The notes under the pieces were generated by a model, which had not been told where the DNA came from, made no database searches, and worked only from the letters and a program-made list of their open reading frames with translations. Made by a program: the position numbers and the translations under genes. A stretch of DNA of 32,787 nucleotides, from positions 1-32,787 of the forward strand of contig JAQYWN010000005.1 of the NCBI GenBank assembly GCA_029379265.1. The letters run 5' to 3'. The DNA comes from Rhizonema sp. NSF051. Its GTDB lineage: Bacteria > Cyanobacteriota > Cyanobacteriia > Cyanobacteriales > Nostocaceae. Positions 3,614 through 32,774 of this stretch are shown here, piece by piece (the stretch's first letter is position 1; each line of letters starts with the position of its first letter).

Positions 3614-4159
3614 TTACTTCTTGCTCTTACCAGTCTTACCTGCTTTACGTCTTACCACTTCACCGGCATAGCGAATACCTTTACCTTTATAAGGTTCTGG
3701 TCGGCGAACATCACGAATTTTAGCGGCTGTGTTGCCAACCTCTTCTTTGTCATAACCACTCACTATGACGTTGGTATTATTTTCCACAGCAAACTGAACT
3801 CCTGCTGGGGGAGCAATTTGCACTTGGTGGCTATAACCCATGTTCATAACTAAGTTACCACCTTGAACTTGTGCCCGGTAGCCAACTCCTTGGATTTCCA
3901 AACGCCGTTGAAATCCTGTAGAAACTCCTTCAACCATGTTGGCAACCAAAGTACGGCACAAACCGTGAAGTTGTCTGGAAGTGCGAGACTCATCCTGACG
4001 GGTTAAGAGTAATGTTTCTCCTTCTTGGGAGACTGTAACATTCGTCGGCAAATCGCGATGAAGTTCACCTTTAGGACCTTTAACAACAACTTTTGTGCCG
4101 TCTACAGTCACTTGTACCTTGGCAGGAATTGTAATTGGGCGTTTACCTATTCGAGACAT
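3614..4159 (-). CDS. rplF: 50S ribosomal protein L6
   Basis: [17 protein letters not shown]...[22 protein letters not shown], typical L6. Confidence 0.98.
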
Positions 4160-4285
4160 AATTCTCCTTTTGTTAATTGTTGGTTGTTAGTTGTTAATTA
4201 TTAATTTTTAGTTGTTGGCAGTCATTAATGACGACTAACGACTATCGACTAGCAACTATCGACTAACTACCTACTAACATCGTAC

Positions 4286-4687
4286 TTACCAAACATAAGC
4301 CAGCACTTCTCCACCCAAGTTTTGCCGTCGTGCTTCTCTGTCGGTCATTATGCCACTTGATGTAGAAATAATGGCAATGCCAATACCGCCTAGTACTCGT
4401 GGTAATTCTTTTTTGGTAGAGTATACGCGCAAACCCGGTTTGCTAACCCGCTTCAAAGTAGTGATCAGAGGTTGACGATGCTTGCCCTTATATTTTAAGG
4501 AGATCGCTAGATTAATTTTTACTCCCTCTCCGATTTCTTCAAAATCCCCAATAAAGCCTTCCTCTCGGAGTACTTTTGCAATACTACGAGTCATTCTTGT
4601 CGCAGGCACTTGTGTCGTTTGATGCCTCGCTAGGTTGGCATTGCGGATGCGCGTCAGCATATCTGCAATAGTGTCGTTAGCTGCCAT
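4286..4687 (-). CDS. rpsH: 30S ribosomal protein S8
   Basis: [18 protein letters not shown]...[31 protein letters not shown]. Confidence 0.98.
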
Positions 4688-4708
4688 CGTTTCCTCATTT
4701 AAATGAAC

Positions 4709-5257
4709 TTATTGATCTCTAAAAGGCATTCCCATCTCTTTAAGTAAAGCACGACCTTCTTCGTCGTTCTTTGCTGTAGTGATGATAGAAATATCCATTC
4801 CTCGGACTTGATCGATGCTATCGTACTCGATTTCTGGAAAAATCAGTTGCTCTCTGAGTCCTAAAGTATAATTGCCGCGTCCATCAAAGCTTTTGGGACT
4901 AATCCCACGAAAGTCTCTAATTCTAGGTAACGCTAGACTAATTAATCGGTCGAGAAAGGCATACATCCTTTCCCCTCTGAGAGTCACCATAATACCTACA
5001 GGCATACCTTGGCGAAGTTTAAAGCCTGCGATCGCTTTCTTTGCCCGCGTTACGACTGGTTTTTGACCGCTAATCAGAGCAATTTCACTTAAAGAAGCTT
5101 CTAAGGATTTAGCATTTTGAGCTGCTTCCCCCATACCTCGGTTAAGCGTAACTTTGATCACCTTCGGTACTTGATGAATGTTTGTGTACTGAAACTGATT
5201 GTTCAGTTTGGGGACTATAGAGTCTTGGTAAAGCGTTTTAAGTCTTGTTGTTGGCAT
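4709..5257 (-). CDS. rplE: 50S ribosomal protein L5
   Basis: [15 protein letters not shown]...[28 protein letters not shown], typical L5. Confidence 0.98.
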
Positions 5258-5394
5258 AGTTTTAAGAGTGATTATCCCTGGGCTTTGTCAGGGAACGTTG
5301 TTGGTTCTAGGGTTGAGTGTAGTTATCTATTAGTGAAGAATTGTTAATTGTTTGACTAATTACTGATCATTAACAATTAACTATTAACCTACAA

Positions 5395-5742
5395 CTATTT
5401 ATCGATGATTTCGCCAGTTTTCTTCAGCATCCGTACTTTCTTTCCTTCCGAGGTGAAGGTATAACAAATACGACTAGCAACGTTTTGTTTGGTGGAATAG
5501 AGCATCACGTTAGAACTATGAATTGGAAATTCCTGAGTGACGATGCGCCCGGATTCTCCTTCTTGCTGTGGTTTTACGTGCTTAGTTTTAATATTGACAC
5601 CTTTAACAACAACTTTGCTAAGTTGGGGAAATGCTTTAACGATTTCACCGACTTTGCCTTTGTCTTTTCCGGCAATCACCTGTACGGTGTCGCCAGTTTT
5701 GACATGCATTTTGTGGAACTGTTTTTCTATTTTTAGCGACAT
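5395..5742 (-). CDS. rplX: 50S ribosomal protein L24
   Basis: [27 protein letters not shown] motif; operon position. Confidence 0.97.
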
Positions 5743-6110
5743 TACAGCACCTCCGGAGCCAAGGACACAATTTTTGTAAAGTTTTTGTCCCGCAGTTCTC
5801 GTGCAACCGGACCAAATACTCTGGTTCCTCTAGGATTGCCGTCTTTGTTAATAATAACTGCTGCATTGTCGTCGAAACGAATACTCATCCCACTGTCTCG
5901 ATTGATATTGTGTCGAGTGCGGACAATCACTGCTTCCACAACGTCTGATTTTTTGACAGCCATATTCGGAATTGCATCTTTGACAACAGCAACAATCTTA
6001 TCACCGACAAAACCGTAACGGCGGTTTCCTGCGCCTAAGACACGGATGCACATTAATTTGCGGGCACCGCTATTATCAGCAACATTAAGGTAACTTTGGG
6101 GTTGAATCAC
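5742..6110 (-). CDS. rplN: 50S ribosomal protein L14
   Basis: [26 protein letters not shown], typical L14. Confidence 0.98.
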
Positions 6111-6271: not shown

Positions 6272-6520
6272 TTAACTATTTTTGGTACTGAGAATCTCTT
6301 TGAGTGTCCAGCGCTTAGTCTTACTCAGGGGTCTAGTTTCTTCAATCCGAACGCGATCGCCTATTTTGCACTGATTGTCTTCATCGTGAACTTTATAGCG
6401 CTGGGTTTTCACTACAATTTTGCCGTACTTAGGATGGGGAGCGCGGTTTTCTATGGCGACAACTACAGTTTTCTGCATTTTGTCGCTCACAACTAAGCCA
6501 ACTCGTTCTTTAACTGCCAT
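6272..6520 (-). CDS. rpsQ: 30S ribosomal protein S17
   Basis: [30 protein letters not shown], typical S17. Confidence 0.97.
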
Positions 6521-6595
6521 GATTTCCGTTCTTTAGTTTTAGTTATGAGTTATGAGTTAAAAATGCCAGAGTACTTTTTACTTGACTCCTAACTC

Positions 6596-6786
6596 CTGTA
6601 CGGGCTGGTTTAATCAGATAACGTACATCAGTATAGAAAATTGCTCAAGAAAACTTACTGTACGGGCAGGTTTCATGAGAAAACTTGCCTACTCAATAAA
6701 ATCTTCCTTGAAAACCTACTGTACGGGCAGGTTTCATGAGAAAACTTGCCTACTCAATAAAATCTTCCTTGAAAACCTGCCCCTAC
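6596..6786. repeat. 61-bp tandem repeat (two near-identical copies plus one diverged copy), GTACGGGCAGGTTT...AAACCTGCCCCTAC family
   Basis: actgtacgggcaggtttcatgagaaaacttgcctactcaataaaatcttccttgaaaacct repeated at 6657-6717 and 6718-6778; diverged unit from 6596. Confidence 0.95.
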
Positions 6787-7001
6787 TGACTTTGTGTAGC
6801 CGCTTTCCGTTTCCGTTCGCCTTCTACTGTTAACAACTGAGCTAGACGGTGGCGAGCATGTTTAAATTGATGAGGTTTTTCTAGTTGTCTGGTAGCTTTT
6901 TGCAGCCGCAACTGAAATAGTTGCTTTTTGACGGCTAAAATTTCCCCGTTCAATTGTTCGTCACTTAATTCTCTGGCGTCTGAAATTTTAGGAAGAGGCA
7001 T
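6783..7001 (-). CDS. rpmC: 50S ribosomal protein L29
   Basis: MPLPKISDARELSDEQLNGEILAVKKQLFQLRLQKATRQLEKPHQFKHARHRLAQL, typical cyanobacterial L29. Confidence 0.96.
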   Translation of the reverse strand: MPLPKISDARELSDEQLNGEILAVKKQLFQLRLQKATRQLEKPHQFKHARHRLAQLLTVEGERKRKAATQSQ

Positions 7002-7004
7002 AAC

Positions 7005-7433
7005 TTATACCTGAGGCGTCTCTTCTGGAGAGCGCATAATAAACTTGGTTTTAATTGGCAATTTGTATGCTGCCAAACGCATGGCTTCTCGAGCCGTTTC
7101 TTCGGTAACTCCACCAATTTCAAACATAATCCGTCCTGGTTTGACGACAGCTACCCAAAATTCAGGTGAACCTTTACCGGAACCCATCCGAGTTTCTGCG
7201 GGACGCATGGTAACTGGCTTATCTGGGAAAATCCGAATCCAGATTTTACCACCCCTGCGAATATAGCGAGTCATTGCCCGACGGGAAGCTTCAATTTGCC
7301 GGGAAGTTATCCATGCTGGCTCTAAGGCTTGGAGCGCAAAATCACCAAAGTTTAGATTGCTACCGCGTGTAGCCATCCCTTCCATTCGTCCGCGCTGTTG
7401 TTTGCGGAATTTAGTTCTTCTAGGACTTAACAT
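7005..7433 (-). CDS. rplP: 50S ribosomal protein L16
   Basis: [19 protein letters not shown]...[20 protein letters not shown]. Confidence 0.98.
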
Positions 7434-7447
7434 GATTTATTACTTGA

Positions 7448-7515
7448 GTAGTGTTAGTTGTTAGTTGTTAGTTGTTAGTCGTTACTAATGACAACTAACT
7501 ATTAACAACTAACTA
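7448..7515. repeat. Heptanucleotide STRR/inverted repeat between rpsC and rplP
   Basis: gtgttagttgttagttgttagttgttagtcgttactaatgacaactaactattaacaactaacta. Confidence 0.9.
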
Positions 7516-8268
7516 TCCTTCGTTTGAACGGTCTTCAAATTGCTGGCGACGGCGTTGTTGTTGGCGGCGACGGGGTTCGCGTTCGCGAGATGTTGGTTGA
7601 GAGGGGGCTTCTTCCTGTCCGGGAATTATTTCTCCCTTAAATACCCACACTTTAATTCCAAGAATGCCATAGACAGTTTTGGCTGTGCAGTATGAGTAGT
7701 CAATGTCTGCCCGTAAAGTATGTAGAGGAACTCTGCCTTCACGAGTCCACTCTGTTCGGGCAATTTCCGCACCGTTGAGACGACCACCCACTTGAACTTT
7801 GATACCTTGCACTCCTGCACGTTGGGCACGCTGAATAGCTTGCCGCACGACTCGTCGGAAGGATACCCGACGTTCTAACTGTTGAGCAATGTATTCCGCA
7901 ATCAGGTAGGCATCAGCGTCAACTCGTTGCACTTCAACTACGTTGATCCGAATTTGGCGATTACCACCCAATGCTTGTTGGAGTCCGACACGCAACGATT
8001 CTATACCTTGTCCACCGCGACCGACGACTACACCAGGTCGAGCTGTGCGGATCTCTAAATCGATTTGGTCAGCTTTGCGATCAATCCGCACTTCCGAGAT
8101 TCCGGCATTGTTTTGAGCGTATCTTCCCAGCTTGTCTTCTATATATTTACGAAGTTTATAATCTTCTTGCAGAAGTTCTGGATAGCGGTCGGAATTAGCA
8201 AACCAACGAGATTGGTGTTCTTGGGTAATTCCTAAACGAAAACCTACTGGATGAATCTTTTGTCCCAC
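7513..8268 (-). CDS. rpsC: 30S ribosomal protein S3
   Basis: [24 protein letters not shown]... KH domain; operon position. Confidence 0.98.
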
Positions 8269-8320
8269 AAATGCTTCCTCTAAAATTTCTTCCTGTACAC
8301 AATTTTTCGTTTAGGTGTGC

Positions 8321-8680
8321 TTATTTAGCTGTGTTATCAGCAGCCACCGCCACAGTGATATGGCACGTTGGCTTGCGAATTTGGTAAGCTCGACCTTGTG
8401 CTCTTGGTTGGAACCGTTTCAACACTGGACCTTGGTCGGCGTATGCTTGAGTCACTTTAAGAAGCGCTCGATCTAACCCTGCATTGTGTTCCGCATTAGC
8501 CGCCGCACTTCTTAAAACCTTCAAGACTGGATCGCAGGCTCGGTAAGGCATAAATTCAAGGATAATGAGCGCTTCTCGGTAGGAACGCCCTCGAATTTGA
8601 TCGAGTACGCGACGTACTTTATAGGGAGACATGCGTATAAAACGCGCGATCGCTTTGACTTCAGTAGTATCAGTAGCCAT
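8321..8680 (-). CDS. rplV: 50S ribosomal protein L22
   Basis: [42 protein letters not shown]. Confidence 0.98.
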
Positions 8681-24842: not shown

Positions 24843-25221
24843 GCTGGGGGTGAGGGCGAGTATTGAGAACCGCCATAGATAAATGAGAGCGCGATCGCAT
24901 ACCACGACTTTTTTAGTAACCATGTACGAAAAAAGAAGATTTCCGTTTCCCCCAAGACGGGAAGGTGAGGAAATGCGATCGCCACTGAACTCACTCGTGA
25001 AATTACTGCCTTGCTTCAGCATATCTCGAGAATTTACACAATTGCTATTTAAACCTTTTTAATCTTTCTCAGAGATATTTCGGATGCTGAAATGTTACAT
25101 CTGAAACTATAACTGTCAAGCAAGTAGTAATAAATTTTATTTTGGCACGTTGGAATTAAGTAGTGAGAAATCCATTCTGACTACCTATTTTCTGCTGCCT
25201 TTACACCAAAACAGGGAAACG

Positions 25222-26886
25222 ATGACAGAAATCTTGACCCCCACACCCGGTTCTATAGTCAGTTGTCGCCGTCGGCAGTGGGTTGTGCTGCCTGCTGAAA
25301 ATAAAGATGTGATTCGATTGCGTCCCTTGGGTGGCAATGAAGACGAAATCGCGGGAATCTTTCAGTTGCTGGGGCTGGAAACTCTTGAACCTGCAATATT
25401 TCCCTTGCCAAGTTCAATTGGGGTCAAAGATCATACATCGGCACTCTTACTGATGGATGCAGCTCGTCACTTACTACGGAGTGGGGCGGGGCCATTTCGC
25501 TGCTTGGGACGGTTATCGCTGCGTCCCCGTCCTTATCAGTTAGTCCCTTTATTAATGGCATTGCGATTGGCAACAGTCAGATTACTGGTAGCAGATGATG
25601 TTGGTATCGGTAAAACTATTGAAGCTGGATTAATTGCCCGTGAACTCTTGGATAGAGGTGAGGTAAAGCGGATTGCAGTTTTGTGTCCTCCGCATTTGTG
25701 CGAGCAGTGGCATACTGAATTACGAGAAAAATTTCATATTGATGCGGTGGTGGTACGCTCGGGTACGGCTTCTAAGTTGGAGAGGGCAATACCTAATAAT
25801 TCTCATATATTTAGTTATTATCAACACCTGATTGTCAGCTTGGACTATGCTAAGGCTGAACGTCGCCGTGCAAGTTTTGTGACACACTGCCCTGATTTGG
25901 TGATTGTGGATGAGGCACATACTTGTACTCGTTCCAGTAATAAGAGTACATCCCAGCAGCAACGTCATCAACTTATTCAGGAAATTGCTCATAAAAGCGA
26001 TCGCCATTTATTGCTCCTGACAGCGACTCCTCACAGTGGTATTGAAGAGGCTTTTCTGTCGCTGCTAGGTTTACTCAAGCCTGAGTTTGAACATGTGAGC
26101 TTAGATAGACTGACTGAGCAACAGCGAACTCAGCTAGCAAGTCATTTTGTGCAACGGCGGCGGGCAGATGTCAAGCAGTGGTTGGGAAATGAGACTCCTT
26201 TTCCGGAAAGAGAATCAGAGGAAAAGCCTTACAAGTTATCGAAGGAGTACAAGCAGTTATTTGAGGATGTCTATAACTTTGCTCGTGGGCTGGTAAAAAC
26301 GACGACACAAGACATGAGCTATGCCCAACGTCGGGGACGTTATTGGGCAGCTTTGGCTTTGATTCGTTGCGTTATGTCTTCCCCTGCTGCCGCAGTCGCA
26401 ACATTAAACCGTCAGGTGAGTAAATCCGGTGGCGAAATACTTGCCGATTTAGACGAAGACTTGATGAGTTCCTACGTCTACGACTCTACAGAGCTTGAGC
26501 AAGTTGTTGATGCACCTCCCACTGTCGTCGTCGAACAGGGACAACAAAGTTATGGTGATGCAGATAAACGCAAACTCAGAGCTTTTGTGCAAGCAGCTGA
26601 TAAGTTACACGGTGAGAAAGACCAAAAGTTGCAATCATGTATTGCTTTCATCCAAAGTTTACTCTCAGACGGTTATAACGCGATTATTTGGTGTCGCTAT
26701 ATTGCCACAGCGAAATATGTTGCTGATGCTCTGAAGCAGAAACTAGAGAAGAAGGGTAGTCAAATTCGCGTCATTGCCATCACTGGAGAACTGTCAGAGG
26801 ATGAGCGAGAAATCCGCCTTCAAGAGTTAAGGGTTTGCGAGTTACTTTTCGCTTGTTTGATGAAAACTGGCGGGGAGAGTATTTAG
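25222..26886 (+). CDS. SNF2-family DEAH helicase, DrmD-like, C-terminally truncated
   Basis: ADDVGIGKTIEAGLIARELL (Walker A), LVIVDEAHTC (motif II), LLLTATPHSG (motif III); second RecA lobe breaks off after DEREIRLQEL, before helicase motifs V/VI. ORF opens at 25150 (TTG); ATG 25222 preferred. Confidence 0.8.
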   Translation: MTEILTPTPGSIVSCRRRQWVVLPAENKDVIRLRPLGGNEDEIAGIFQLLGLETLEPAIFPLPSSIGVKDHTSALLLMDAARHLLRSGAGPFRCLGRLSLRPRPYQLVPLLMALRLATVRLLVADDVGIGKTIEAGLIARELLDRGEVKRIAVLCPPHLCEQWHTELREKFHIDAVVVRSGTASKLERAIPNNSHIFSYYQHLIVSLDYAKAERRRASFVTHCPDLVIVDEAHTCTRSSNKSTSQQQRHQLIQEIAHKSDRHLLLLTATPHSGIEEAFLSLLGLLKPEFEHVSLDRLTEQQRTQLASHFVQRRRADVKQWLGNETPFPERESEEKPYKLSKEYKQLFEDVYNFARGLVKTTTQDMSYAQRRGRYWAALALIRCVMSSPAAAVATLNRQVSKSGGEILADLDEDLMSSYVYDSTELEQVVDAPPTVVVEQGQQSYGDADKRKLRAFVQAADKLHGEKDQKLQSCIAFIQSLLSDGYNAIIWCRYIATAKYVADALKQKLEKKGSQIRVIAITGELSEDEREIRLQELRVCELLFACLMKTGGESI

Positions 26887-29705
26887 AATTGTCGCCTTTA
26901 AATGGTGATTTATTCGGTTCCAATACCCTACAAGCGTTGGATGATTGCGCCATTGATAATCACGATTTACTAGTAGCGATTCGGCATTTGTCGCTGTACC
27001 AACAAAAGGGACAATTGCGACGCGTGAATTATGCTGCTTTGGATGTGGAAGAATTAGGAAGTGTGTATGAAAGTTTGTTGGATTTTCACCCTCAGGTAAT
27101 CCAGCGTCAGGGGTTATATAAATTTGATTTGGTGTTAGGAAGCGATAGAAAAACCACTGGATCTTATTATACTCCACCACAACTCGTCCAACAACTCATC
27201 AAAACTGCATTAGAACCTGTTATTGAAGAGAAGGTTCGTAGTGCTTTACCAGATGCGCTAAAGCGTTACGAACAAGCACTCCTCAGTCTCAAAATTGTCG
27301 ATCCCGCTTGCGGCTCAGGGCATTTCCTCCTCGCTGCAGCACGTCGCCTTGGTAAAGAATTAGCTAAAATCCGCACTGGAGAAGCAGAGCCCGGATATCT
27401 ACCGTTACGCCAAGCAATTCGAGATGTGATTCAAAACTGTATTTATGGGGTGGATATCAACCCTTTGGCAGTAGATTTATGCAAAGTGGCGCTATGGATT
27501 GAAGGCTTTGCTAGTGGGATGCCACTCAACTTTTTAGATCACAGAATTAAGTGTGGCAATTCCCTCGTGGGGGTATTGGATATCAGTTGTCTGGAAGAGG
27601 GAATTCCCGATGAAGCATACAAAGCTGTGACGGGGGATGATAAGAAGTTATCAACACAGTTTAAAAAGCGGAATCAGAAAGAACGGGATAACCAGGGACA
27701 ATTATCGATATTTGAGAAATTGGAAGGCGATCGCGCACAGTATGCTGAAACTGCGCGGGAGTTAGGAGAAATTGCCGAAACCACACCGCAACAAGTCAGG
27801 CAAAAACAAGCGCAATACCAGCAAAGTCGTGAAAATCCCGGTTGGTGGCGAGACTATTCAGCGTGTAATTTATGGACAGCTGCATTTTTTATGCCACTAA
27901 CAGAACATAATTTACAATTATTCCCCACCACAGAAACGCTAACTCAGCTATTGCGGGGTAATTTATCAACGCAAAGGATAGTAGAGGCGGCGAATAAGTT
28001 AGCGGAGGAGAAGCACTTTTTCCACTGGTGCGTCGAGTTTCCTGAAGTGTTTGAGGTGGGTGGTTTTGATTGCGTGTTGGGAAATCCACCTTGGGAACGG
28101 ATTAAGTTGCAGGAGAAAGATTTTTTTGCGGCTCGTAATGCTGATATTGCTAAAGCTAATAAGGCAGAACGAGAAAGATTAATTAAGCTGTTATATAAAA
28201 ATAAGCCAGAGTTAGCACATGAATTTGAGCAGGCAAAACATGATGCTGAGACACAGAGTAAGTTTCTTCGTGAGTCTGGAAATTTTCCAACAACTGCTGT
28301 AGGGGATGTTAATACATATGCTTTATTTACTGAAAAAAAATGGTTGCTTACTAATAAAAAAGGATGGGTTGGTTGTATAGTCCCATCAGGAATTGCTACT
28401 GATGATTCTAACAAGATTTTTATCCAAAAAATAGTAAAAGGTTACGCTCTTGCGAGTTTCTATGATTTTACGAATAGAGGGTATATTTTTCCAGATTTAG
28501 AAAGTACACATTCATTTTCTTTATTAACGTTTTCAAGAAGAGAAGTTAAGGAAGTAAAACTAGCAGCACAGCTATGGAAAACAGATGACATAAGAAGAAT
28601 TGGCAGGGTTTATAGTCTCAAAGTTGAAGATATTAAAAAACTTAACCCAAATACCTTAAATCTTCCAATCCTTAAAACAGTTAAAGATGCTGAATTCATC
28701 AAAAGTATTTATCAAAATGTTACTGTTTTGGTAAATGAAAGTTTACACAATAACCGTTGGGGTATTTATTTCTTACGGATGTTTGACATGACAAATGATT
28801 CTGTGTCCTTTTTCTGTAAGAGAAATCAACTAGAGAAAGATGGATGGATTCTTGAAAATAATTTAATGAAGAAAGACAACCTTACTTATCTTCCTTTATA
28901 TGAGGCAAAATTGACAGACATTTTTAACCATCGTGAATCCACTTTTTCTGGAATCCCAGCGCAAGATATGTATGGTACTCGTCCCCGTACTAATAAAGCT
29001 GACTTAGAACAGCTTCAGAATCCTGACTGGATAGTTTTGCCAAGATATTGGGTGTCTCAAGAAGAGGTTTTAGTAAGAGTTCCAGAATTTTGGAAATATT
29101 CATGGTTAATTGGCTTTCGGAATACTATAAGTGCTGTTGCAGACTCAAGGAGTGTTAGATTTACGATTATTCCTAAATTTGGTGTTGGTAATTCCATGCC
29201 ATTAGTTTTTTCAGATCAAAATCCCAAAAAAGTAAGTGCATTAGTTGCTAACTTTAATTCGTTAATTCTTGATTACGTCGCAAAGCAAAAAGCAAGTGGT
29301 GGAAATTTAAACTTTTACGTTGTCCGACAACTACCCATCCTTCCCCCAGAAACATACACCCCAGAAGACACAGAATTCATCAGTACCCGCGTACTCGAAC
29401 TCGTCTACACTGCTTGGGATATGCAGCCCTTTGCCAAAGACATGGGATGCGATCGCGAACCATTTATTTGGAACAGCAACCGCCGTGCATTATTAAGAGC
29501 AGAATTAGACGCATATTACGCCAAACTCTACGGACTCACCCGTGATGAACTGCGTTATATTCTCGATCCTACTGATGTCTACGGCGAAGACTTCCCTAGT
29601 GAAACATTTCGGGTGTTGAAGAACAATGAGATTCAGCAATTTGGAGAGTATCGCACGCGAAGGTTAGTTTTGGAGGCTTGGGATAAGATGTTCGGTAAAT
29701 CTTAA
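26835..29705 (+). CDS. N6-adenine DNA methyltransferase (Eco57I/PglX/DrmMI-like), N-terminally truncated
   Basis: IVDPACGSGHFLLAAARRLGKELA (SAM motif I), FDCVLGNPPWERIKLQEKDFF (NPPW motif IV); open frame starts abruptly at an unlikely TTG at the junction with the upstream helicase. Confidence 0.85.
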   Translation: MRVTFRLFDENWRGEYLELSPLNGDLFGSNTLQALDDCAIDNHDLLVAIRHLSLYQQKGQLRRVNYAALDVEELGSVYESLLDFHPQVIQRQGLYKFDLVLGSDRKTTGSYYTPPQLVQQLIKTALEPVIEEKVRSALPDALKRYEQALLSLKIVDPACGSGHFLLAAARRLGKELAKIRTGEAEPGYLPLRQAIRDVIQNCIYGVDINPLAVDLCKVALWIEGFASGMPLNFLDHRIKCGNSLVGVLDISCLEEGIPDEAYKAVTGDDKKLSTQFKKRNQKERDNQGQLSIFEKLEGDRAQYAETARELGEIAETTPQQVRQKQAQYQQSRENPGWWRDYSACNLWTAAFFMPLTEHNLQLFPTTETLTQLLRGNLSTQRIVEAANKLAEEKHFFHWCVEFPEVFEVGGFDCVLGNPPWERIKLQEKDFFAARNADIAKANKAERERLIKLLYKNKPELAHEFEQAKHDAETQSKFLRESGNFPTTAVGDVNTYALFTEKKWLLTNKKGWVGCIVPSGIATDDSNKIFIQKIVKGYALASFYDFTNRGYIFPDLESTHSFSLLTFSRREVKEVKLAAQLWKTDDIRRIGRVYSLKVEDIKKLNPNTLNLPILKTVKDAEFIKSIYQNVTVLVNESLHNNRWGIYFLRMFDMTNDSVSFFCKRNQLEKDGWILENNLMKKDNLTYLPLYEAKLTDIFNHRESTFSGIPAQDMYGTRPRTNKADLEQLQNPDWIVLPRYWVSQEEVLVRVPEFWKYSWLIGFRNTISAVADSRSVRFTIIPKFGVGNSMPLVFSDQNPKKVSALVANFNSLILDYVAKQKASGGNLNFYVVRQLPILPPETYTPEDTEFISTRVLELVYTAWDMQPFAKDMGCDREPFIWNSNRRALLRAELDAYYAKLYGLTRDELRYILDPTDVYGEDFPSETFRVLKNNEIQQFGEYRTRRLVLEAWDKMFGKS

Positions 29706-29706
29706 G

Positions 29707-29770
29707 GTTCGTAGTTGCGCTTCAGCGCCTCTTGATCCTGATGAAGATGCGCTGAAGCGCAACTACGAAC
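29707..29770. repeat. REP hairpin 1 (22-nt perfect inverted arms)
   Basis: gttcgtagttgcgcttcagcgc (29707-29728) / gcgctgaagcgcaactacgaac (29749-29770), starting just after the methylase stop. Confidence 0.93.
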
Positions 29771-29832
29771 AAATTATAAGGAATTTGGGGAATATCGTGT
29801 GCGAAGGTTGGTGTTGGAGTCTTGGGATAGGA

Positions 29833-29890
29833 GTTCGTAGTTACGTTGTCTTCGCTCAAGATTTGAATGCGCTGAAGCGCAACTACGAAC
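29833..29890. repeat. REP hairpin 2 (diverged left arm, intact right arm)
   Basis: gttcgtagttacgttgtcttcgctc ... gcgctgaagcgcaactacgaac (right arm 29869-29890). Confidence 0.85.
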
Positions 29891-29897
29891 AAATTAT

Positions 29898-30503: not shown

Positions 30504-30596
30504 GTTCGTAGTTGCGCTTCAGCGCATTCAACTCTCTTTACGAAGACAGCCATCAAGATTCGTAGTTACTGAGAGCGCTGAAGCGCAACTACAAAC
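30504..30596. repeat. REP hairpin 3 upstream of the RAYT gene
   Basis: gttcgtagttgcgcttcagcgc (30504-30525) ... gcgctgaagcgcaactacaaac (30575-30596, one mismatch). Confidence 0.9.
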
Positions 30597-30674: not shown

Positions 30675-32774
30675 ATGAAACTTCCAATAAAACTACAGGA
30701 TTTATTACAGCAGGATGAACGTGCGATCACAGCCGCGAGTACTTTTCTTAGTCAAAAGCTAGCAATTCTAGATTGTACGAGTATTGAGTCAGTTACGCCA
30801 GAACAATTAGCTCTTTTATTCTCTAGCATTCCGGAAATTTGGGATTTAACAGATATTGAAGAAGTGTTGGATTTTTCGACAGTTAATACAATTCTCAGTC
30901 ATCAACTTCGAGAGTGGATTAATAAACGAGGAAGTACAATTCAGTCAAAATCAATTACGAATTATGAATTCAAACAGAATTACCTGGACATTTTCAACTT
31001 CCGGAATGAAGTCATTGGAGACTATCGCCGCTATATTGAAAGCTTCTTAAAAATTCGCGATGCTAAAGTAAAAGCTTTTGTAGATGCCGAATTGGATAAA
31101 GGGCAATTGTGGACTGAACCTTTAATACAACTCAATCCTACCTACAAAAAAGGTGCAATTGTTAGTGAATTGGTGCAACAGCGAGTTCTTCATGAAGAGT
31201 GCGATCGCTACTTCTCTAAATATACTTTCCACTACCATCAAACACAAGCGTTCCACACGGCACAACGTCAAGAACCCTTTGTTGTCACCACAGGAACAGG
31301 TTCTGGGAAAAGCATGACTTACGTTGTGCCTATCTTTAATGATTTACTCCACCATCCGGAAATTGAGGGAGTGAGGGCAATCTTAGTTTATCCTATGAAT
31401 GCCTTAATTAACTCCCAAAAAGAAGAACTCGACAAATTTTTGCGCCAGATTCCTAACACTCACATTCGCGTTGAACAGTACACTGGACAAGAAGATTTAA
31501 CGAAGAAAACCGAAATTCAAAATAACCCTCCCCACATTTTACTGACCAACTATGTGATGCTAGAGTTAATGCTCTCTCGCACTCATGAAAATAAACTGGT
31601 AGAGTCTCCCAATTTAAAATTCCTCATACTCGATGAACTCCACACCTATCGGGGAAGACAAGGTGCAGACGTTGCCATCTTAATTCGCAAACTCCGCCAA
31701 CGCAGCAAAAATCATCATCAAATACTCTGTATTGGCACGAGCGCCACTATGTCAACGGAAGGTTCTCGCGAACAACGCCGTCAAGTTGTGGCGGATGTCG
31801 CTAGTAAGTTATTTGGTGTGGAAATCAAACCTAGCAATGTTATTGATGAAACTCTAGAGCGTTCTATCAAACGTGCTGAACCTACTATAGAGGAACTACG
31901 CCAAAGTATCCAAGCTGGTTTACCAAACGAGTCAGCACAAACGTTGGAGAATTTCCAACAGCATCCCCTCAGCGACTGGATTGAGATGAACTTCGGGTTG
32001 AAGGAAGAAGTCGTCGATGGGGTAACGGAGAATAAGATTATTACTTTCCCAACAAAATCTGCTCGGCTTGCGGCTGCATCTACTGGGAAATACACGACAT
32101 CTTCTCAAAAATCTGTGAGTTATGTTCGCCGTATACCAATTACGCTTCAGGAAGGTGCGGAGAAATTGGCTCAAGTTTGTAGTTGTGTGGCGGCAGATGA
32201 TGAAGATGCGCTGAAGCGCAACTACGAACAATGTTTGAAGGTTCTTAAACAGATGTTTCTGTGGGGAAGTAAGACTAAGGGATTGGCTTTTCGCCTGCAT
32301 CAGTTTATTTCTCAAGGGGGTAGTGTTTACGCCACGATTGAACATCGAGACAAGCGTCTTCTCACTCTTGAAGGTCAGTATACAACGACTGAAGACCGCT
32401 TGTTGTATCCGCTTGTTTTTTGTCGGGAATGCGGACAAGACTATTACGTTGTGCGCTACGATGCTGATAAGCAAATTGTCTTGCCTCAGTTACCGACGGC
32501 GTTGGATGTCAGCCCTGATGATGCAGATATTACTGAAGGTTATCTTACTTTAGATGAACGGGAACTTTGGGATGAAGGTGATGAAGATAGGCTTCCTGAC
32601 TCCTGGTTTAACGAAACTAAGAAGAAAGGGCGGGTTGCCAAGAAGGATTACATGCGGTTTATTCCCCGTAAATTGCAAGTGTTACCTAATGGCAAGACAA
32701 GTTCTCTGTTGCAGGGAACGAGTTGTTGGTTAACTCAGATCTTGCACCTGGAAACTTCAATGTTAATTCCTTGA
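30675..32774 (+). CDS. DEAD/DEAH-box helicase, DrmA/YprA (MrfA)-like; possibly truncated at its 3' end
   Basis: VVTTGTGSGKSMTYVVPIFND (Walker A), FLILDELHTYRGRQGADVA (motif II), CIGTSATM (motif III), VFCRECGQDYYVV (zinc-binding-like); stops at LLQGTSCWLTQILHLETSMLIP. Confidence 0.8.
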   Translation: MKLPIKLQDLLQQDERAITAASTFLSQKLAILDCTSIESVTPEQLALLFSSIPEIWDLTDIEEVLDFSTVNTILSHQLREWINKRGSTIQSKSITNYEFKQNYLDIFNFRNEVIGDYRRYIESFLKIRDAKVKAFVDAELDKGQLWTEPLIQLNPTYKKGAIVSELVQQRVLHEECDRYFSKYTFHYHQTQAFHTAQRQEPFVVTTGTGSGKSMTYVVPIFNDLLHHPEIEGVRAILVYPMNALINSQKEELDKFLRQIPNTHIRVEQYTGQEDLTKKTEIQNNPPHILLTNYVMLELMLSRTHENKLVESPNLKFLILDELHTYRGRQGADVAILIRKLRQRSKNHHQILCIGTSATMSTEGSREQRRQVVADVASKLFGVEIKPSNVIDETLERSIKRAEPTIEELRQSIQAGLPNESAQTLENFQQHPLSDWIEMNFGLKEEVVDGVTENKIITFPTKSARLAAASTGKYTTSSQKSVSYVRRIPITLQEGAEKLAQVCSCVAADDEDALKRNYEQCLKVLKQMFLWGSKTKGLAFRLHQFISQGGSVYATIEHRDKRLLTLEGQYTTTEDRLLYPLVFCRECGQDYYVVRYDADKQIVLPQLPTALDVSPDDADITEGYLTLDERELWDEGDEDRLPDSWFNETKKKGRVAKKDYMRFIPRKLQVLPNGKTSSLLQGTSCWLTQILHLETSMLIP
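32175..32231 (+). repeat. REP-like unit embedded in-frame in the helicase CDS
   Basis: tgatgaagatgcgctgaagcgcaactacgaacaa (32198-32231) is identical to 29739-29772; degenerate left arm gtttgtagttg at 32175. Confidence 0.85.

Follow-up and report, generated by a model that had tools for sequence, protein, structure and literature searches.

The locus described here raises the question of how a second, diverged copy of the 3′ end of a methylase gene came to lie behind that gene, between two REP pairs and close to a RAYT gene. The window (the whole stretch of 32,787 nucleotides that was analysed) lies in contig C618 of the fragmented draft genome of Rhizonema sp. NSF051, a genus known as a lichen cyanobiont. 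From position 25150 it holds a DISARM-like anti-phage locus encoding a SNF2-type helicase, an Eco57I/DrmMI-type methylase and a DEAD/DEAH helicase (see Table 1). The resemblance to DISARM lies in the occurrence of a SNF2-type helicase, a large adenine methylase and a DEAD helicase in one locus, whereas the genes here are truncated and neither helicase nor methylase scores above the curated cut-offs. The PADLOC DrmMI match to the methylase had an E-value of 2e-69, with the methylase below all NCBIfam cut-offs, and the DrmD-like model reached 372.5 against a cut-off of 610, even for the intact homologue L048.

Table 1. Features of the methylase–helicase region, in coordinates of the window.
Feature	Position	Strand	Basis or remark
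Eco57I/DrmMI-type adenine methylase ORF, truncated	26835–29705	+	N-terminal part of full-length homologues missing
Tail copy A, inside methylase gene	29635–29688	+	Ungapped alignment to 29779–29832
REP1, inverted REP pair (REPIN-like), GTAG-tagged, near-perfect hairpin	29707–29770	+	MFE −48.7, z −11.3
AAATTAT flank (f2), unit 1	29771–29777	+	Identical to flank after REP2
Fragment B, second methylase tail	29779–29832	+	Frame closes ..WDRSS* via TAG of the GTAG of REP2
REP2, inverted REP pair, left arm of another subtype (TTGTCTTCGCTC)	29833–29890	+	MFE −23.6, z −3.8
AAATTAT flank (f2), unit 2	29891–29897	+	Abuts RAYT stop codon
RAYT gene, 196 aa	29898–30488	−	NF047646, 87.4 bits against cut-off 80
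REP3, 5′ side of RAYT gene, upstream of helicase	30504–30596	+	MFE −45.6, z −8.6
DEAD/DEAH helicase ORF, same defence locus	30675–32774	+	ORF, profile matches
REP half-element, in frame inside helicase ORF, peptide DEDALKRNYEQ	32198–32231	+	Sequence

The methylase tail (copy A) and the fragment between the two REP pairs (fragment B) were found to be identical at 44 of 54 positions in an ungapped alignment with an offset of 144, their translations in the methylase frame being QFGEYRTRRLVLEAWDK and EFGEYRVRRLVLESWDR. The local alignment score of 36 lies well above those of 20,000 dinucleotide shuffles (mean 8.6, maximum 18), which rules out a chance match as the source of the repeat. A sequence-only reading had reported a diverged duplicate of the methylase 3′ end at this place, at an offset of exactly 144 and with these two peptides, and on all of these points it was borne out. 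Chance similarity or an assembly artefact, for which the fragmentation of the draft (1,010 contigs) might speak, is considered highly improbable given a score so far outside the shuffles and two copies that differ by 19% and lie inside a contig. An att-type integration repeat was rejected, as only REP1 lies between the copies, with no integrase there. A functional small gene was likewise rejected, the open frame of fragment B being just 31 codons long and extending back into REP1; fragment B itself is probably without function. No third copy of the tail was found in the assembly.

The repeat extends beyond the methylase tail. Positions 29747–29777 are identical to positions 29867–29897 over 31 nt (ATGCGCTGAAGCGCAACTACGAACAAATTAT), reaching 7 nt past the REP, and when 39 further REP ends from 20 stretches of the genome were examined, the AAATTAT flank followed none of them. 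Because the unit ends are identical up to and including a flank which is not REP sequence, and because this flank is absent from the other REP ends examined, the duplicated unit is taken to consist of the methylase tail, the REP pair and AAATTAT. The description of fragment B as trapped between two REPs is correct as to its literal position, but the repeated unit takes in more than the tail, REP1 and its flank being part of it. The first unit continues from the methylase body and the second runs up to the RAYT stop codon, which is the arrangement predicted by tandem duplication. Fragment B is probably the left-hand portion of unit 2 in an old tandem duplication, located where methylase and RAYT meet, whose unit comprised the methylase 3′ end (f1), the REPIN and AAATTAT (f2).

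The strand-exchange step, the order of the later changes and the role of RAYT that we infer would be as follows. In the ancestral order the methylase tail was followed by a REP pair, AAATTAT and RAYT, and a template switch or out-of-register exchange would have joined the unit end (..CTACGAACAAATTA) back to upstream methylase codons (..AAGAACAATGAGATTA-AGG..). The sequence at the joint, CTACGAACAAATTATAAGGAATTTGG, is similar to the REP end as well as to the methylase codons AAGAACAATGAGATTA(A)G, with the strings GAACAA and ATTA in common, and the joining was probably aided by these short strings, by hairpins and by RAYT nicking of the REPs. Unit 2 lacks 17–18 nt that lie between two GTTCG strings in unit 1; their subsequent loss would have fused tail B to REP2, with the GTAG box supplying the stop codon, and unit 2 would then have drifted to 81% identity. 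The units have not diverged evenly along their length, the tails differing at 10/54 positions and the unit ends at 0/31 (Fisher p=0.012), and REP1 and REP2 have left arms of different subtypes, so that either later conversion between the REPs or the involvement of two alleles must be added to the duplication.

The arms of REP1 are 94% complementary, with REP2 forming a weaker pair (12/13 in the outer arms), and the right half of REP3 is common to the congener PD38. The region gives 79 matches within the genome, nearly all of them to its REPs, and the GTAG was seen in the copies. The RAYT gene, which scores below the cut-off of Pfam Y1_Tnp (21 against 23), is the single close copy in the genome, the one other match having 25% identity. 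Orthologues of 67–77% occupy this methylase 3′ end in three further genera (L053, L046 and L062), so that the association of REP/RAYT with the methylase end is long-standing. The TnpA-REP protein of E. coli cleaves REPs in single-stranded form, at CT dinucleotides close to the hairpin (PMC8266576). Both units have a minus-strand CT some two bases beyond the identical flank, which may be a RAYT cleavage site; as CT is a common dinucleotide, this is only suggestive.

A scan of the individually retrieved loci revealed further and younger tandem units made of a gene tail and a REP in other cyanobacteria. These comprise the methylase tail and REP pair in L162 (123 bp, 1.9 copies, 99%), the last methylase codons and REP in L174 (84 bp, 2.9 copies, 86%) and the last codons of the RAYT orthologue and REP in L062 (64 bp, 2.0 copies, 100%). 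A stop codon supplied by the REP was also seen in L064, where the tail ends KSS*, and in L062 (TCGTAG). The ordered REPIN clusters of Pseudomonas consist of tandem repeats in which the flanking sequence is repeated too, and some of these clusters lie beside RAYT genes (Bertels and Rainey, 2011; PMC3116915). The present locus resembles these f1-REPIN-f2 clusters in its two tandem units, each with a 5′ flank, an inverted REP pair and a short 3′ flank, and in its adjacent RAYT. The inverted REP pair forms the core of both units (hairpin z-scores in Table 1) and both flanks are repeated with it, f1 as 54 nt at 81% and f2 as an identical AAATTAT. It differs in that f1 here comes from a protein-coding gene, of which it is the 3′ end, and in that the units have diverged, whereas the published units are typically nearly identical, a property that is not strictly defining. 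Near-identity is seen in L162 and L062 but not here, where 10 of the 54 positions of f1 and the left arms differ; this may reflect either age or two alleles. With independent tandems of this kind elsewhere and a published cluster type to compare, the earlier suggestion of a REP-mediated recombination scar is well supported.

The locus also shares the GTAG box, the multicopy palindrome with its palindromic arms and the adjacent, REP-flanked RAYT with the GTAG-tagged REPs/REPtrons, which have been reported in cyanobacteria and for which TAG stop codons supplied by the REP and REPs inside ORFs are already known (PMC3733652). In the present locus the duplicated unit has also captured a gene end, a feature not found in the passages of that paper that were consulted, and the literature searches gave no direct report of REP tandem amplification of gene ends. 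Fragment B and its REPs are a diverged case of the known kind of tandem REPIN cluster, and the gene end caught inside is what is added. The locus shows that gene ends, and not just intergenic flanks, can be copied in REP/RAYT tandem duplication, and that such copies leave coding-looking fossils which may be misread as second alleles or as small genes. The young parallels in L162 and L062 provide unit boundaries usable for testing how REPIN clusters arise.

A serious rival to tandem duplication, which remains the best reading, is allele replacement, in which tail B would stem from a methylase allele, either foreign or formerly present, that was joined to RAYT, and would have been stranded when an incoming tail A with REP1 recombined at the REP. 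This is possible but rather unlikely. The tails closest to B were those of PD38 (45/54), of the adjacent gene (44/54) and of PD37 (43/54); no other genome exceeded 41/54, and in about 72% of bootstraps the tail nearest to B came from its own genus. Fragment B keeps an A at 29648 and a T at 29654 (copy A numbering), as does PD38, whereas the local tail and PD37 differ. These two ancestral bases argue for a replacement, as do the different subtypes of REP1 and REP2 and the finding that the ten changes between B and A lead to four amino-acid changes and no stop, a mild coding constraint (p=0.03) in a weak test that also counts constrained change on the A branch. Fragment B has decayed too, however, with Val where every other tail listed has Thr. 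No allele matching it better than 45/54 was found, and the 217 genomes of the family contained no closer donor tail, the best non-self matches being 80–82% over about 50 nt (in G025, the genome of L064, and in G523). Against the tandem duplication, on the other side, it counts that neither PD37 nor PD38 has REP1/REP2 after the methylase, so that the intermediate was not seen in the genus.

Allele replacement is also favoured by L052 (UBA8803, 7896–8360), where a second tail follows the first at a distance of 375 bp and precedes a XisH-like gene. As its 9 differences over 90 nt are all synonymous (0 of 20,000 simulations), it is a true second-allele tail, which shows that such tails do get stranded at this gene end. 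The recent parallels in L162 and L062, on the other hand, are plain tandem duplications. The other half of the earlier interpretation, that fragment B is the tail of a second, related methylase allele, is only possible; the tails nearest to B are those of its own genus, and B has the two PD38 bases and the weak constraint.

It may also be asked whether tail B arrived as the passenger of a mobile RAYT/REP cassette from another methylase locus. In favour of this, small mobile-type genes elsewhere are directly preceded by orphan tails: Rpn genes in G523 (twice) and G050, a XisH-like gene in L052, and others, toxin-antitoxin genes among them. Tails in short frames made up 15 of 67 tail matches, against 0 of 46 matches to the catalytic segment and 2 of 59 to the N-terminus in the same genomes. 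This excess is a lead, the family-specific threshold for catalytic matches having been set by eye after the list had been seen and the frame cut-off of ~130 aa likewise post hoc; at a looser cut-off (200 aa) the contrast between tail and N-terminus gave only p=0.06. With RAYT found at this methylase end in three further genera as well, no transfer is needed, and no other methylase tail that could have served as donor was found in this genome, so that a passenger origin is judged improbable.

Methylase and helicase are separated by as little as 52 bp (L054) or by more than 4 kb (L058), and the contents of this gap include Rpn nucleases or RAYT, along with what we take, from names assigned by eye, to be XisH-like genes, transposases and toxin-antitoxin-like genes. 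It is tentatively suggested that recombination recurs at the methylase 3′ end and strands the tails of diverged alleles next to small mobile genes that arrive there (RAYT/REP, Rpn, XisH-like, toxin-antitoxin). If so, stranded tails at this gene end would record past allele swaps in a defence locus. It should also be noted that G523 carries two copies of a cassette with an orphan methylase tail and an Rpn nuclease gene (L230, 633–2287; L231, 920–2630), the first gene of which is presumably Uma2-like; in this genome the tail moved together with its neighbours.

The defence locus is decaying in this group. The methylase has 956 aa, compared with about 1,300 aa in intact homologues, and its N-terminal segment is absent from the whole genome. 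Relative to PD37 and PD38 there is a joint at 26830, where the helicase ORF (25150–26886) and the methylase ORF overlap and where about 756 bp (PD38) to 2,300 bp (PD37) are missing. In L066, the closest relative, the methylase C-terminus and the helicase N-terminus have been lost. Three other methylases of the family, in L152 (2512–2715), L153 (2505–2705) and L154 (1–198), start exactly at the LRAELDAYY codons, as if broken; the break in L153 abuts an apparent transposon end and that in L154 is a contig edge. These codons are a possible insertion hot spot. The REP insertion in the helicase occurs at the same site in several genera and is absent in others, it has expanded to three repeats in L053 (12400–12480), and its peptide is also found in L066 (ORFs 3819–5807 and 6297–8354), inserted in the methylase.
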